DNA from: Fulvivirga sp. M361
GTDB taxonomy: Bacteria; Bacteroidota; Bacteroidia; Cytophagales; Cyclobacteriaceae
Direction of reading: 5' to 3'
DNA length: 64,000 bases
Assembly (NCBI RefSeq): GCF_007097395.1
Contig: NZ_VKDC01000006.1
Location: 396,073-460,072, forward strand
The position numbers were made by a program, and so were the translations under genes. Position 1 is the first letter of the stretch. Each line of letters opens with the position of its first letter. The notes under the pieces are model-generated. The model did no database searches. It was not told where the DNA came from and saw only the letters and a program-made list of their open reading frames with translations. Below, piece by piece: positions 3,504 through 61,907 of the stretch.

Positions 3504-4490
3504 CTACCAACCTTCAGGCAGGTTTTCCCTTATTTCAATATTTTCAAATTCTTTACTTTTTCTTGAGCCCACGGCCTTTGCCCATTCCACCATTTTTCCA
3601 ATTCCTGCATGCAGATCAACAGCGCTGTCCGTTCCGAAAAATTTATGTGCCTTTGAATGGTCTGAATAGGCATGGACTACCTCTTTTCGTGCCTGTAAAT
3701 AGTTGACATTTGGCTCGACCTCGAAGTGCTCACATACTACTTTTACAAGTTCATTGACTGTGTAAGGTTTATCAGCCCCTATATTGAAAACTTCATTATA
3801 GGTATTAGGTCGATTGACACAATCACTGATAGGTATGGCTACATCGTCTATGTAGCTAAAAGCCCTTGTTTGTTCACCGTCACCAAAGACAGTAAGCGGC
3901 TTGTTTTGCATGATCTGATTCATAAATATCCCAATCACATTCCTGTATTTATCACCAATGTTTTGGTTTTCACCATATACATTATGTGGTCGGAATATGG
4001 TATAGTTGAGCCCAAACATTTCGTGGGCCGCCTTTAAATCCAATTCGACAGAATATTTGGCTACACCATATGGGTCCTCAGGTGTTGGAGTCATATCCTC
4101 TGTCATAGGAAGCTGGCCAGGACCATATACAGCTATGGAAGAGGTGAAAACAAAGCATTTAACTTTATTCTTGACAGATTCATTGATCAGGTTGACACTG
4201 CCAATTAAGTTGTTTGTATAGTTGAACCTTCTGATGAAGTGAGATAAACCTTCTGCTGCATAAGCTGCCAGATGATACACATAATCGAATTGATATTTGT
4301 CAAAAAGCTCTTTTAGCAAAACGTGATCAGTGATGGAACCTTTAACAAAAATAGCGCCGGATGGAATGTGATCCTCGAAGCCTCCGCTAAGATCGTCCAA
4401 AACAACCACTTGATGCCCCATATTCAAACAGTGTTTTGTGACATGAGAACCTATAAAACCTGCTCCTCCGGTAACTAAAGAATTTGCCAT
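3504..4490 (-). CDS. NAD-dependent sugar-nucleotide epimerase/dehydratase (SDR family)
   Basis: An extended short-chain dehydrogenase/reductase of 328 residues. The dinucleotide-binding motif TGGAGFIG is at residues 7-14, VYHLAAYAA is near 71-79, serines 117-118 lie in the FTSS segment and the catalytic YxxxK is Y141-K145 in PYGVAKYS. The FRPHNVYGE segment is the usual substrate-side signature of UDP-glucose 4-epimerase relatives. It probably makes a nucleotide sugar, for example by 4-epimerisation, for the neighbouring glycosyltransferases. The ATG at 4488-4490 follows the GT2 gene by 11 bp. UDP-glucose or UDP-glucuronate epimerase and 4,6-dehydratase relatives cannot be separated by eye. 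Confidence 0.85.
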   Translation of the reverse strand: MANSLVTGGAGFIGSHVTKHCLNMGHQVVVLDDLSGGFEDHIPSGAIFVKGSITDHVLLKELFDKYQFDYVYHLAAYAAEGLSHFIRRFNYTNNLIGSVNLINESVKNKVKCFVFTSSIAVYGPGQLPMTEDMTPTPEDPYGVAKYSVELDLKAAHEMFGLNYTIFRPHNVYGENQNIGDKYRNVIGIFMNQIMQNKPLTVFGDGEQTRAFSYIDDVAIPISDCVNRPNTYNEVFNIGADKPYTVNELVKVVCEHFEVEPNVNYLQARKEVVHAYSDHSKAHKFFGTDSAVDLHAGIGKMVEWAKAVGSRKSKEFENIEIRENLPEGW

Positions 4491-22375: not shown

Positions 22376-22397
22376 TTAGAACCTTTGGAGGTACTAA
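22376..22397. promoter_or_regulatory. Palindromic operator box 1 upstream of the satD-like gene
   Basis: A 22-bp imperfect palindrome with left half TTAGAACCTTT and right half GGAGGTACTAA, one arm mismatch from the consensus TTAGAACC-N6-GGTTCTAA. It is the leftmost of four boxes and pairs with box 2, whose start is 29 bp away. Confidence 0.6.
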
Positions 22398-22404
22398 AGT
22401 GCGT

Positions 22405-22426
22405 TTAGAACCTTAGAGGGTTCTAA
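22405..22426. promoter_or_regulatory. Palindromic operator box 2
   Basis: Left half TTAGAACCTTA and right half GAGGGTTCTAA, with intact TTAGAACC/GGTTCTAA arms. It lies 7 bp after box 1 and 69 bp before box 3. Confidence 0.65.
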
Positions 22427-22495
22427 ATAGATTAAGCCTGAAATTGCCGCGTCACAGATACTTGAAATGTCATATAGAATGGCCACCTTAGCTAA

Positions 22496-22517
22496 TTAGA
22501 ACCTTCTAAGGTTCTAA
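22496..22517. promoter_or_regulatory. Palindromic operator box 3, the most perfect copy
   Basis: TTAGAACCTT at 22496-22505 and AAGGTTCTAA at 22508-22517 are exact reverse complements around a 2-bp centre. It is paired with box 4 at the same 29-bp start-to-start spacing seen for boxes 1 and 2. Confidence 0.7.
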
Positions 22518-22524
22518 TCATTGT

Positions 22525-22546
22525 TTAGAACGCCAGAAGGTTCTAA
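22525..22546. promoter_or_regulatory. Palindromic operator box 4, directly before the start codon
   Basis: Left half TTAGAACGCCA and right half GAAGGTTCTAA. It ends 10 bp before the ATG of the satD-like gene, so a bound protein would block transcription or translation start. This argues for the ATG at 22557 and against an in-frame TTG at 22521 that would put the box inside the gene. Confidence 0.62.
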
Positions 22547-22556
22547 ATTAGAGGCT

Positions 22557-23222
22557 ATGAAAGGTATAACGGGAGCAGTGATCACAGGCGATATAATTGG
22601 GTCTACAAGGATTCCGGGCGGCTACAAAGACGTACTTCACAAGATAGGTGATGATATTAAGCAGCATCAGGATGATAGATTTATCATAGACATATACAGA
22701 GGGGACAGCTTTCAATGCATTTCCAATAGACCGGGAAAAGGATTATTAATTTTATTGCTTATTAAAGCAGGTTTAAAAAGACATAGCAGTAAAATAAGAA
22801 GCGAAGAGCTGCAATGGGATGCGCGAATGTCTCTGGGCATAGGTTTTTTGGAAGAATACCCTCATACCAATGACTTAACAGAACTCACAGGAGGTCCATT
22901 TACCAGATCGGGACGTTCATTAGATCAAATGAAAGAAAAAGGACGTTTGATCCAAGTCACTACTGGTGAAGAACAATTAGATGCGGAAATAGCCTCAGTA
23001 CTACCCATGATAGAGGTGATTACAGATAAGTGGAGTACCGCCCAGGCGGATGCGGTCTATCCATTACTTCTTTTTAATACTATTACTCAAGATGCTATTG
23101 GTAAAAGAATAGGTAAATCACAAAGGGCCGTCAGCAAGCGTTTGGATGTGAGTAAGATTGAGGCCATCAAACCTTATTTGAAGAGATTTGAAGAACAAAT
23201 AAAATGGACATTTCGCAAGTAG
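22557..23222 (+). CDS. SatD-like protein with C-terminal helix-turn-helix
   Basis: A 221-residue protein from the ATG at 22557. The N-terminal 150 residues fit the SatD family: ITGDIIGST (D12), IYRGDSFQC (D50), RMSLGIGF and GGPFTRSGRSLDQM. Their order and spacing resemble the metal-binding aspartates and later motifs of class III nucleotide cyclases, which is my inference. Residues about 178-197 (TQDAIGKRIGKSQRAVSKRL) form a helix-turn-helix. Four palindromic boxes lie just upstream, so it is probably a DNA-binding autoregulator. It overlaps the DUF3307 gene by 19 bp; SatD and DUF3307 genes are often adjacent in other genomes. SatD is linked to acid tolerance in streptococci, but its biochemistry is not established. 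Confidence 0.78.
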   Translation: MKGITGAVITGDIIGSTRIPGGYKDVLHKIGDDIKQHQDDRFIIDIYRGDSFQCISNRPGKGLLILLLIKAGLKRHSSKIRSEELQWDARMSLGIGFLEEYPHTNDLTELTGGPFTRSGRSLDQMKEKGRLIQVTTGEEQLDAEIASVLPMIEVITDKWSTAQADAVYPLLLFNTITQDAIGKRIGKSQRAVSKRLDVSKIEAIKPYLKRFEEQIKWTFRK

Positions 23223-24013
23223 ATATATTTTTTCGACTTCTGATTGCTCACTTGCTGGCAGATTTTATGTTTCAAAGTAACAGGATGGCGGTCGAAAAGA
23301 AGAACGGCCCTGCATCCGGATATTATTATCTGCATGTCCTTACGGTGGGCGTTACCACTTATTTGTTGCTTGGAAAATGGACCAATTGGCAGGGGCCTTT
23401 GATTATCATGGTCATACATGGTGCTATTGATGCAATAAAAGCCCGTATTGAATCAAAACACTGGTGGAAAGCAGACAGAGGGAAATGGCTCTTTATCATA
23501 GATCAATTTCTTCATGTACTCACCTTGCTCATTTATTGGATCATTTACACCAAAGCCATTAAAGACTGGTCAATCTTTCAACAAACATTAAATACCCGGT
23601 TGTTTAACAATACAGATGTTTTGATAGTAACGATCGCTTACCTGGTGATCACTATGCCGGTAGGAATTTTGATTGGATTCATAACCAAAAAATGGCAGGA
23701 TGAAATAGCGGAGGATGACCGTGAAAAGAGAGAGAAAGATCCGGATGGCGACTTTCCGGAACAAGAAAGTTTGAAAGATGCCGGCAAAACCATCGGTATG
23801 ATCGAAAGATCGTTGGTTTTGACCTTTGTACTTATGCAGCAATATCAAGCGATCGGATTTTTAATAGCTGCTAAATCTGTATTCCGGTTTGGTGATCTAA
23901 AAGAGTCCGGTCAACGAAAGCGTACCGAATACATCCTTATTGGTACGTTGATCAGCTTTATTCTGTCCATCCTGATCGGTGTACTTACTCAATTCTTAAT
24001 TCTGAAATTCTAG
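23204..24013 (+). CDS. DUF3307 polytopic membrane protein
   Basis: A 269-residue protein starting with the DUF3307 signature FFRLLIAHLLADFMFQSN, followed by YLHVLTVGVTTYLLL, IMVIHGAIDAIKA and FIIDQFLHVLTLLIYWII. These histidine- and aspartate-containing helices are the family hallmark. At least six membrane helices can be drawn, with a charged cytoplasmic loop around residues 165-195 (EIAEDDREKREKDPDGD). The start overlaps the end of the SatD-like gene by 19 bp, so the two are translationally coupled. The family has no known biochemical activity; a membrane partner for the SatD-like protein is the simplest reading. The C-terminal half is longer than the core domain. Confidence 0.82.
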   Translation: MDISQVDIFFRLLIAHLLADFMFQSNRMAVEKKNGPASGYYYLHVLTVGVTTYLLLGKWTNWQGPLIIMVIHGAIDAIKARIESKHWWKADRGKWLFIIDQFLHVLTLLIYWIIYTKAIKDWSIFQQTLNTRLFNNTDVLIVTIAYLVITMPVGILIGFITKKWQDEIAEDDREKREKDPDGDFPEQESLKDAGKTIGMIERSLVLTFVLMQQYQAIGFLIAAKSVFRFGDLKESGQRKRTEYILIGTLISFILSILIGVLTQFLILKF

Positions 24014-60461: not shown

Positions 60462-61907
60462 ATGGAACCAACCAAACCTCAATATGACTTTTTGCTGTTT
60501 TCCTTTCTTTTTTTTATCTGTCTATCCAATGCAATGGCTCAAAATGAAGACGAGACACCCCTTCCATACCTGGGAAACCTTGAAGTCCGTAGCTCAAGGC
60601 AGATCATTGCTTCAAACTGGTCAATTGGTGGTGAAACATTAGACAGGGACCTGACGGTCTTTGACCATTGGAAGGAGTACCTCTCTCCCTTAGGTGCTAA
60701 AAAAATGAGATTACAGGCAGGATGGGCAAAATGTGAAAAGCAAAAAGGAGTGTATGATTTTGAGTGGCTCGATGAGATCATAGATTATTTGGTCTCCAAT
60801 GACATCGAGCCCTGGTTACAGACTTCCTACGGAAACCCGATTTATGAGAGTGGGGGAGGTATTCATTTAAATGCAGGATTTCCACGCTCAAAAGAAGCGC
60901 TTGACGCGTGGGATAAATGGGTGTACGCTTTAGCAAATCGATATCGTGGTAAGGTGAATATTTGGGAAGTATGGAATGAACCGGAAAAAAACAGCGTAGA
61001 AGATTATGCCGGGTTGTACGTACGTACCGCAGAAATTATCCGAAAGGAAATACCTTCCGCTACACTATACGCTCTGTCGATGGCAGAGATAAAAAAGACA
61101 GATTACCTCGAGAGTTTCCTCGCTATTTTAACACGTGAAAATAAGTTGAGACTGGTAGACGACATCACTGTGCATGGATATACCTACCGGCCGGAAGATA
61201 CCTATCCGCATTACCAAAAACTGTATGAGGTTATCGCGCGCTATAGTGACAGGATCAGGCTAAACCAGGGCGAATTAGGGTGCCCTTCTACCAACATTCC
61301 TTACTATGCCCTTAAAAACTACGACTGGACAGAAGTCTCTCAGAGTAAATGGCTGCTAAGAAAGCTTTTGGGAGATTTAGGACATGATATCCCGTCATTA
61401 TACTTTACGATTGCCGATATTATTTATACACACGATGGGGTACGACCACTGGATGAAAATACACGAAACTCAAAAGGGTTGTTAGAAGCTAATTTCAAGA
61501 GGGAAATTGTCAGAAAAAAACAGGCTTATCATGCCTATCAACATGTTACGGCGATTTTTGATCATACGTTTGAACGCATTCCTAATTACAGCTACAAGAC
61601 GGATATTGATAGCTCTTTAGCCGTTTTCGGCTACAGGAAAAAATACTTTGATCAACAGCTTGTGGCCATTTGGTTTGACGCTTATGTCCCTGATAGCTCA
61701 ATAAAAAAGGTCCCTGCCAACTTTCAGTTTAATAATGGAATCTTTGAAAACCCTGTCTATTTGGATGTTAGAACCGGTAAGGTGTATAATATTCCGTCGG
61801 ACCAATGGGAAAAGAATGGAACCCATTACATTTTTAAAGATATTCCTGTATATGATTCGCCAATTTTGATTGTGGATAAAGGCTTAATTAAGCTCAAAAA
61901 CAATTAA
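60462..61907 (+). CDS. GH-A-type glycoside hydrolase, GH39-like
   Basis: 481 residues with a signal peptide ending NAMAQ. The barrel shows KKMRLQAGWAKCEKQKGVYDF, the Trp-rich first strands of GH39/GH5-type enzymes. The acid/base is E173 in IWEVWNEPE and the nucleophile candidate is E271 in LNQGELGCPS. The last 80 residues form a beta-sandwich (DQQLVAIWFDAYVPD). It should release a terminal sugar with retention, as beta-xylosidases and alpha-iduronidases do in GH39. Start and stop lie close to the flanking genes (1 bp and 56 bp). Substrate and exact family are uncertain. Confidence 0.82.
   Translation: MEPTKPQYDFLLFSFLFFICLSNAMAQNEDETPLPYLGNLEVRSSRQIIASNWSIGGETLDRDLTVFDHWKEYLSPLGAKKMRLQAGWAKCEKQKGVYDFEWLDEIIDYLVSNDIEPWLQTSYGNPIYESGGGIHLNAGFPRSKEALDAWDKWVYALANRYRGKVNIWEVWNEPEKNSVEDYAGLYVRTAEIIRKEIPSATLYALSMAEIKKTDYLESFLAILTRENKLRLVDDITVHGYTYRPEDTYPHYQKLYEVIARYSDRIRLNQGELGCPSTNIPYYALKNYDWTEVSQSKWLLRKLLGDLGHDIPSLYFTIADIIYTHDGVRPLDENTRNSKGLLEANFKREIVRKKQAYHAYQHVTAIFDHTFERIPNYSYKTDIDSSLAVFGYRKKYFDQQLVAIWFDAYVPDSSIKKVPANFQFNNGIFENPVYLDVRTGKVYNIPSDQWEKNGTHYIFKDIPVYDSPILIVDKGLIKLKNN

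Follow-up and report, generated by a model that had tools for sequence, protein, structure and literature searches.

What do four palindromes directly in front of a satD-like gene do, and which protein reads them? Here, we analysed a window of 64,000 nucleotides from Fulvivirga sp. M361 and compared its satD locus with the rest of the host genome, with the host's family and with more distant bacteria and archaea. The initial annotation had placed 22-bp palindromes at 22376, 22405, 22496 and 22525, with 29 bp inside each of two pairs, 91 bp from pair to pair and 10 bp between the last box and the ATG at 22557. All four boxes lie at these starts with zero to one mismatch to the pattern TTAGAACC-N6-GGTTCTAA (8-nt arms), and the distances agree throughout. 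Box 1 (22376..22397, TTAGAACCTTTGGAGGTACTAA) carries one mismatch; box 2 (22405..22426, TTAGAACCTTAGAGGGTTCTAA) and box 3 (22496..22517, TTAGAACCTTCTAAGGTTCTAA) have perfect arms, the palindrome of box 3 extending to 24 bp; box 4 (22525..22546, TTAGAACGCCAGAAGGTTCTAA) has one mismatch in its 8-nt arms and a perfect TAGAAC-N8-GTTCTA core (no strand is assigned to the boxes). The window holds five matches with up to three mismatches, the fifth at 61768 with three, where 0.27 are expected by chance, and five were reached in none of 100 shuffles of the window.

The host genome (8.13 Mb, 148 contigs, 97.55% complete) was scanned with the same pattern, a check the initial annotation had proposed. 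We found 29 sites with up to three mismatches, compared to 27 for the reversed pattern, and these comprise the four window boxes (0–1 mismatch) and 25 sites with three mismatches; none has two, so that the four boxes are the only sites in the genome with zero to two. The TAGAAC-N8-GTTCTA core occurs in exactly three perfect copies, all in the window array, and box 1 is one of eight core sites with one mismatch (reversed control: 23). A scattered genome-wide repeat is ruled out, as the boxes of the host genome are confined to the satD promoter array.

Searching for the exact window box proved uninformative among relatives: in 57 of them plus the host's own genome, we counted 73 sites with up to two mismatches, compared to 126 for the reversed pattern. 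Since the arms differ between lineages, comparisons had to be made among the boxes of one locus. Boxes are alike within one locus and unlike between loci, with 33 distinct half-sites in 150 loci. The family survey covered 295 genomes of the host's family, taken out of a larger group. A SatD homologue is encoded in 118 of them, and 121 satD loci including the window were analysed after three of 124 matches (G190, G238:C22 and G047) had been left out. A satD open reading frame is present in 121/121 loci and DUF3307 adjoins it on the same strand in 114. We applied a palindrome scan without a preset pitch (words of 6 nt, gap of 4–12, at most one mismatch in 12, within 250 bp upstream) and found at least two boxes in 108 of the 121 loci; 62 loci have three or more. 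Dinucleotide shuffles of the upstream regions gave 1.09 boxes on average; in-gene control regions had one box in 116/121 cases and two in 5/121, and controls farther upstream one in 116/117 and two in 1/117. Without any assumption on pitch, neighbouring boxes are spaced by exactly 28 or 29 bp in 162 of 182 cases, compared to 0 of 22 in mononucleotide shuffles (21 of 363 with at least two boxes). A fit that presupposes this pitch and an 8-bp gap returns 288/311, a biased figure for which 162/182 is the unbiased counterpart. Identical or related boxes, spaced by 29 bp and ending about 10 bp ahead of the ATG, also precede the genes of the four closest homologues in the family (identity 66, 62, 60 and 41%), and in six loci of the window's clade the last core starts 29–31 bp before the ATG. 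Absence of the palindromes in relatives, for which the initial annotation had suggested aligning the upstream regions of related satD-DUF3307 loci, is thus excluded. The scan detects no array in 13 of the 121 loci, seven of which have DUF3307. Arrays accompany 107 of 114 loci with DUF3307 and one of seven without it, three of these seven (L098, L135 and L138) having near-identical HTH regions and thus representing fewer independent cases.

Beyond the family, the best 80 of 543 relatives in named genomes, mostly Bacteroidota but also Methanolobus, Omnitrophus and others, together with one viral contig, gave at least two boxes in 63 of 81 loci. These loci partly repeat family genomes, leaving 189 distinct loci of 202. 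None of the three clearest methanogen loci has three boxes (L179 and L219 one each, L225 two). Plasmid contexts were covered by 11 inspected records, 10 of them annotated, out of 24 matched. Eight of the 11 plasmid loci (L266, L267, L268 and L270–L274) beat all 40 shuffles; L264, L265 and L269 do not, and L268, whose best word is A-rich, was not counted as an array. The seven counted arrays belong to Pseudoalteromonas, Segatella, Enterobacter, Vibrio, Salinivibrio and two haloarchaea, and the one at L267 appears only when satD is started 60 nt inside the annotated start. The array geometry thus recurs in Bacteroidota, Gammaproteobacteria and haloarchaea. In the haloarchaeal loci L273 and L274, the 250 bp upstream of satD contain GTTCG-type half-sites; read together, the two scans suggest two pairs at 29-bp spacing, as in the window.

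To ask what might bind such arrays, we turned to the encoded protein. The satD-like gene (22557..23222, plus strand, 221 aa) starts by homology at the ATG at 22557, whereas the mechanical list of open reading frames starts it at a TTG at 22521. Its product matches the SatD family PF16264 with E = 4e-5 and 23.8 bits, below the curated cut-off of 29, and is missed by this profile in a whole-genome search of the host genome; we therefore name it SatD-like. It is homologous over its full length to proteins that do match PF16264, a profile found at E ≤ 0.01 in 38 of 42 aligned relatives. In the AlphaFold2 model (pLDDT 95.3, pTM 0.92), helices link a palm domain to a C-terminal HTH, in agreement with the HTH noted in the initial annotation. 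The N-terminal palm domain, of class III nucleotidyl-cyclase/GGDEF-like type, covers about residues 1–135 (22557..22961, plus strand) with conserved D12 and D50; the HTH region covers about residues 172–205 (23070..23171, plus strand). Foldseek retrieved GGDEF domains and class III cyclases (E 1.2e-5 to 1e-3, TM about 0.4 to the full query), among them the cUMP synthase 7r65. A profile of the N-domain matches the adenylyl cyclase Ma1120 (PDB 4wp8/4wp9) with E = 9e-5 and both aspartate motifs aligned. SatD thus combines a class III nucleotidyl-cyclase-like domain with an HTH. In class III cyclases, paired aspartates bind metal, and a transition-state Asn...Arg signature is present. D12 and D50 are invariant in an alignment of 35 sequences and kept at 95 and 96% in the 121 loci. 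The two-Asp palm is thus common to both, whereas the Asn...Arg signature is absent from SatD: in alignments read by eye, no Asn is conserved and position 120 holds R, E or other residues. Since this pair is not conserved, it is plausible that SatD binds a nucleotide without cyclising it.

If SatD itself reads the boxes, half-sites should follow its recognition helix. This helix was assigned from the structure model to residues 189–199 (23121..23153, plus strand); its code residues, named from co-variation, are R190, A191 and K194. Of the 202 loci, 13 stayed outside the array fit (L240 with its 488-aa reading frame and 12 whose protein was already present), and the code analysis excluded 39 of the remaining 189, which had z below 5. 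In an analysis of 64 representatives below 55% identity, additionally without 22 loci that are not in the TA register, the top column for base 6 was residue 194 (z 16.1) and that for base 5 was residue 191 (z 12.8). Columns of the N-domain reach z 8–11 for base 4, which we attribute to phylogeny as this base tracks N-domain columns and main clades. In tables of 73 representatives (L047, L114 and L116 dropped, four others turned into the TA register), Ala191 goes with A at base 5 in 34/34 and Thr191 with G in 9/10; Lys194 goes with C at base 6 in 19/21, Gln194 with G in 20/20 and Glu194 with G in 9/12. Arg190 goes with G at base 3 in 3/3, all of them relatives of the window, which itself stands outside the 73. 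From R190, A191 and K194 the window protein is predicted to read TAGxAC, and its boxes read TAGAAC.

Shared ancestry could produce such links, and we permuted half-sites inside N-domain clusters (112 representatives, 64 of them in one cluster). For base 5, residue 191 keeps a wide lead (z 14.9 and 16.1); for base 6, residues 194, 182 and 190 come first (z 8–12), with columns outside the HTH reaching z 4–7; the link of residue 190 with base 3 is lost with 15 clusters. A partial Mantel test gave −0.302 for the helix given the N-domain (0/999 permutations) and −0.073 for the N-domain given the helix. The nearest sequence by helix predicts the whole half-site in 26/64 cases, little better than 22/64 by N-domain. 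A closest-pair test of low power puts residue 191 at the head of 194 columns for base 5 (p = 1.4e-3), and residue 194 falls outside the top five for base 6. Leave-one-out prediction from single residues is right in 59/72 for base 5 and 56/70 for base 6, compared to 46/73 and 33/73 for the commonest base. Seven plasmid loci were fetched after the code had been set, and it was right for base 5 in 7/7 and for base 6 in 6/7; counted as six distinct arrays, mostly from proteobacteria and haloarchaea, these are 6/6 and 5/6, where the commonest base gives 3/6 and 1/6. The single miss is base 6 of L267, whose Tyr194 had one training case. The half-site of L270 (gap 7) was picked by hand and the other later ones came from the array fit; L264, L265, L268 and L269 have no usable array and stood outside this test. 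The sites thus co-vary with the recognition helix as those of a repressor would, weakly so in the closest-pair and nearest-sequence comparisons.

It is very probable that the four palindromes are bound by the protein whose gene follows them directly. We consider it highly likely from these comparisons that they form an operator array of SatD serving cooperative autoregulation, with repression of satD-DUF3307 under control of a nucleotide ligand. In the proposed mechanism, the class III nucleotidyl-cyclase-like domain would act as a sensor joined to the C-terminal HTH, each HTH would read a 6-bp half-site, here TAGAAC, and two inverted half-sites with 8 bp between them would make up one box for one dimer. 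SatD would fill the array cooperatively, cover the promoter and the start of its own operon and so repress satD-DUF3307, and occupancy would depend on a nucleotide or cyclic nucleotide bound by the N-domain. From the position of the array we infer repression rather than activation, and the fixed 28/29-bp pitch makes cooperative binding likely. At 10.5 bp per turn, 28 bp correspond to 2.67 turns; boxes every 28/29 bp place a half-site of opposite orientation at each interval of about 14 bp, so that adjacent dimers could touch. The geometry would suit a chain of touching dimers around the DNA helix. Autoregulatory repressors with multi-box operators are well known, for example lambda CI at OR1–OR3. 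Like these, SatD has several palindromes at fixed spacing before its own operon and a few helix residues that set specificity; unlike them, it has half-sites alternating at about 14 bp, a pitch of 28/29 bp, arrays of two to at least 12 boxes and a cyclase-like domain. Palindromic sites at the gene's own promoter that are rare elsewhere are likewise a mark of such repressors, and were found here with two exceptions. A search for two TATAAG boxes 29 bp apart in 345 genomes of the phylum matched eight genomes at 11 distinct places (reversed control: no match in the same genomes). At eight of these places satD follows the boxes. The remaining three (L256, L258 and L263, around 1501–1549), from three genomes of a single genus, are found at the 3' end of a patatin-like gene, possibly a second target away from satD. 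The other exception is one exact TAGAAC-N8-GTTCTA core on another contig of the relative G118 (C2:265699-265718).

Looping between the two pairs had been part of the model in the initial annotation. Its autoregulatory part is strongly supported by comparison (arrays in 108/121 loci, promoter confinement, helix tracking) and its cooperative part is likely given the pitch, whereas looping finds no specific support. If SatD were an activator, or formed loops that require the two pairs to be in phase, this would account for the spacer DNA that parts the two pairs in the window and several relatives, and for an upstream pair far from the ATG. The pair-to-pair step is, however, 91 bp in the window, 56 and 69 bp in L105 and L166 of the same clade, and 50, 42 and 32 bp in the split arrays of L103, L112 and L181, and these six values have no common helical phase, which makes a loop of fixed phase unlikely. 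L106 has four contiguous boxes, the first with two mismatches, and 162/182 spacings overall are contiguous. As the last box lies about 10 bp before the ATG in the window's clade, a position that suits repression, we regard activation or looping as unlikely. Less probable still is that satD is just the target of another protein, such as a host regulator, that occupies the boxes. The three TATAAG-type arrays away from satD in one genus would fit such a protein, but half-sites track SatD's own recognition-helix residues within clades and again in the later arrays from other phyla, the boxes of the window's genome are confined to the satD promoter, and array and gene start share their history in G118 (see below).

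The palindromes might also act as RNA hairpins in the 5' leader, as attenuator or stability elements, since each box could fold into an 8-bp stem with a 6-nt loop beside the start codon. Compared to the locus consensus, we counted 22 two-sided complementary arm changes where about six are expected from independence, which would speak for pairing; symmetric drift of a dimer site accounts for these as well, and one-sided changes dominate with 351 (26 further two-sided changes are not complementary). One sequence shared by all boxes of a locus while loci differ, the fixed 28/29-bp pitch and the co-variation of helix and bases also argue against hairpins, which we consider the least probable of these alternatives.

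The second gene of the operon encodes a polytopic membrane protein (23204..24013, plus strand) whose ATG at 23204 overlaps the end of satD and which matches DUF3307 with E = 1.3e-21. Its model is all-helical (pLDDT 90.0, pTM 0.70), without a convincing fold match in the PDB (best E 1.9) or a PDB sequence match up to E = 1. D20, H44, H72 and H104 are invariant in the family and H16, D76 and D100 nearly so, which suggests a metal site in the membrane. The protein also matches the phage family phrog_2470, a membrane protein (E = 4.8e-15), and DUF3307 is named in a paper on a jumbo phage. A phage origin of the pair was rejected: 50,697 phage records gave no SatD or DUF3307 match at E = 1e-3, and the scan of relatives yielded one viral contig.

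Several observations point towards mobility of the two genes. In G118 (L105, minus strand, about 4126–4220), a truncated second satD start with its own array lies 472 bp upstream of the working satD, in a 396-bp stretch that shares 88.9% identity with the intact satD locus found in G247, a genome of the same genus. Since this stretch holds both the array and the truncated satD start, the two share a history, and one satD module has apparently displaced another. SatD and DUF3307 make up two of five annotated genes on a 4,424-bp Klebsiella plasmid typed as ColRNAI and again on a 3,770-bp E. coli plasmid; these tiny plasmids are the loci L264 and L268. On a Sphingomonas plasmid (L275, 5159–16434), one flank of the pair carries GajA/GajB together with a ThsB-like TIR gene, and the opposite flank PycTM/PycC; on an Enterobacter plasmid (L270, 1586–8978), the pair follows GajA/GajB (Gabija) and an IS3 element. 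Clear defence-gene neighbours were found in these two (Sphingomonas, E. kobei) of the 10 annotated plasmid records inspected; the haloarchaeal, Vibrio, P. fragi, Segatella and Salinivibrio plasmids offer mixed gene contexts. Near the window's satD we noticed metabolic and regulatory genes in the gene list and no known defence gene.

As the pair dominates tiny replicons and adjoins Gabija and Pycsar genes on plasmids, a role in defence or addiction is possible. Pycsar, like SatD-DUF3307, pairs a cyclase-fold protein (PycC) with a membrane protein (the effector PycTM), one plasmid carries both systems side by side, and the cUMP synthase 7r65 is among the fold matches of SatD. HTH and operator array are, however, found on the SatD side only, and neither window protein has a good match among the PADLOC models, with no match to a Pycsar model up to E = 1. 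We tentatively suggest that SatD-DUF3307 might be a self-contained two-gene module exchanged horizontally among bacteria and archaea, in which a nucleotide-sensing repressor of cyclase fold would polymerise on its own diversified array and hold back the membrane effector DUF3307 until infection or another stress releases it. Such an anti-phage or addiction system would diversify its DNA specificity so that modules do not cross-repress.

The initial annotation had known of no DNA-binding role of SatD proteins. Among the literature matches listed, a partial set with many unrelated papers, none describes DNA binding by SatD, a weak negative; a gene table in a paper on S. suis labels satD a 'DNA-binding protein'. 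Further papers link the S. mutans sat genes to acid tolerance and describe satD of S. pyogenes as essential in the strains tested yet accessory. If the module reading is true, the latter would reflect repression of a harmful partner. A family named for acid tolerance would gain a testable role, in which a protein of cyclase fold binds specific DNA sequences and so regulates its own operon. The simple residue-to-base code predicts binding that can be checked by gel shift in many genomes, and an operon found on tiny plasmids and beside defence systems would allow regulation and function of an unstudied mobile module to be tested together. The architecture, common across phyla including haloarchaea and with a readable code, is larger than first noted. 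At a further locus (L246, G473:C17:70472-70810), at least 12 boxes of the type TATAAG-N8-CTTATA precede satD at a 29-bp pitch, in a region whose neighbouring stretch consists partly of N.
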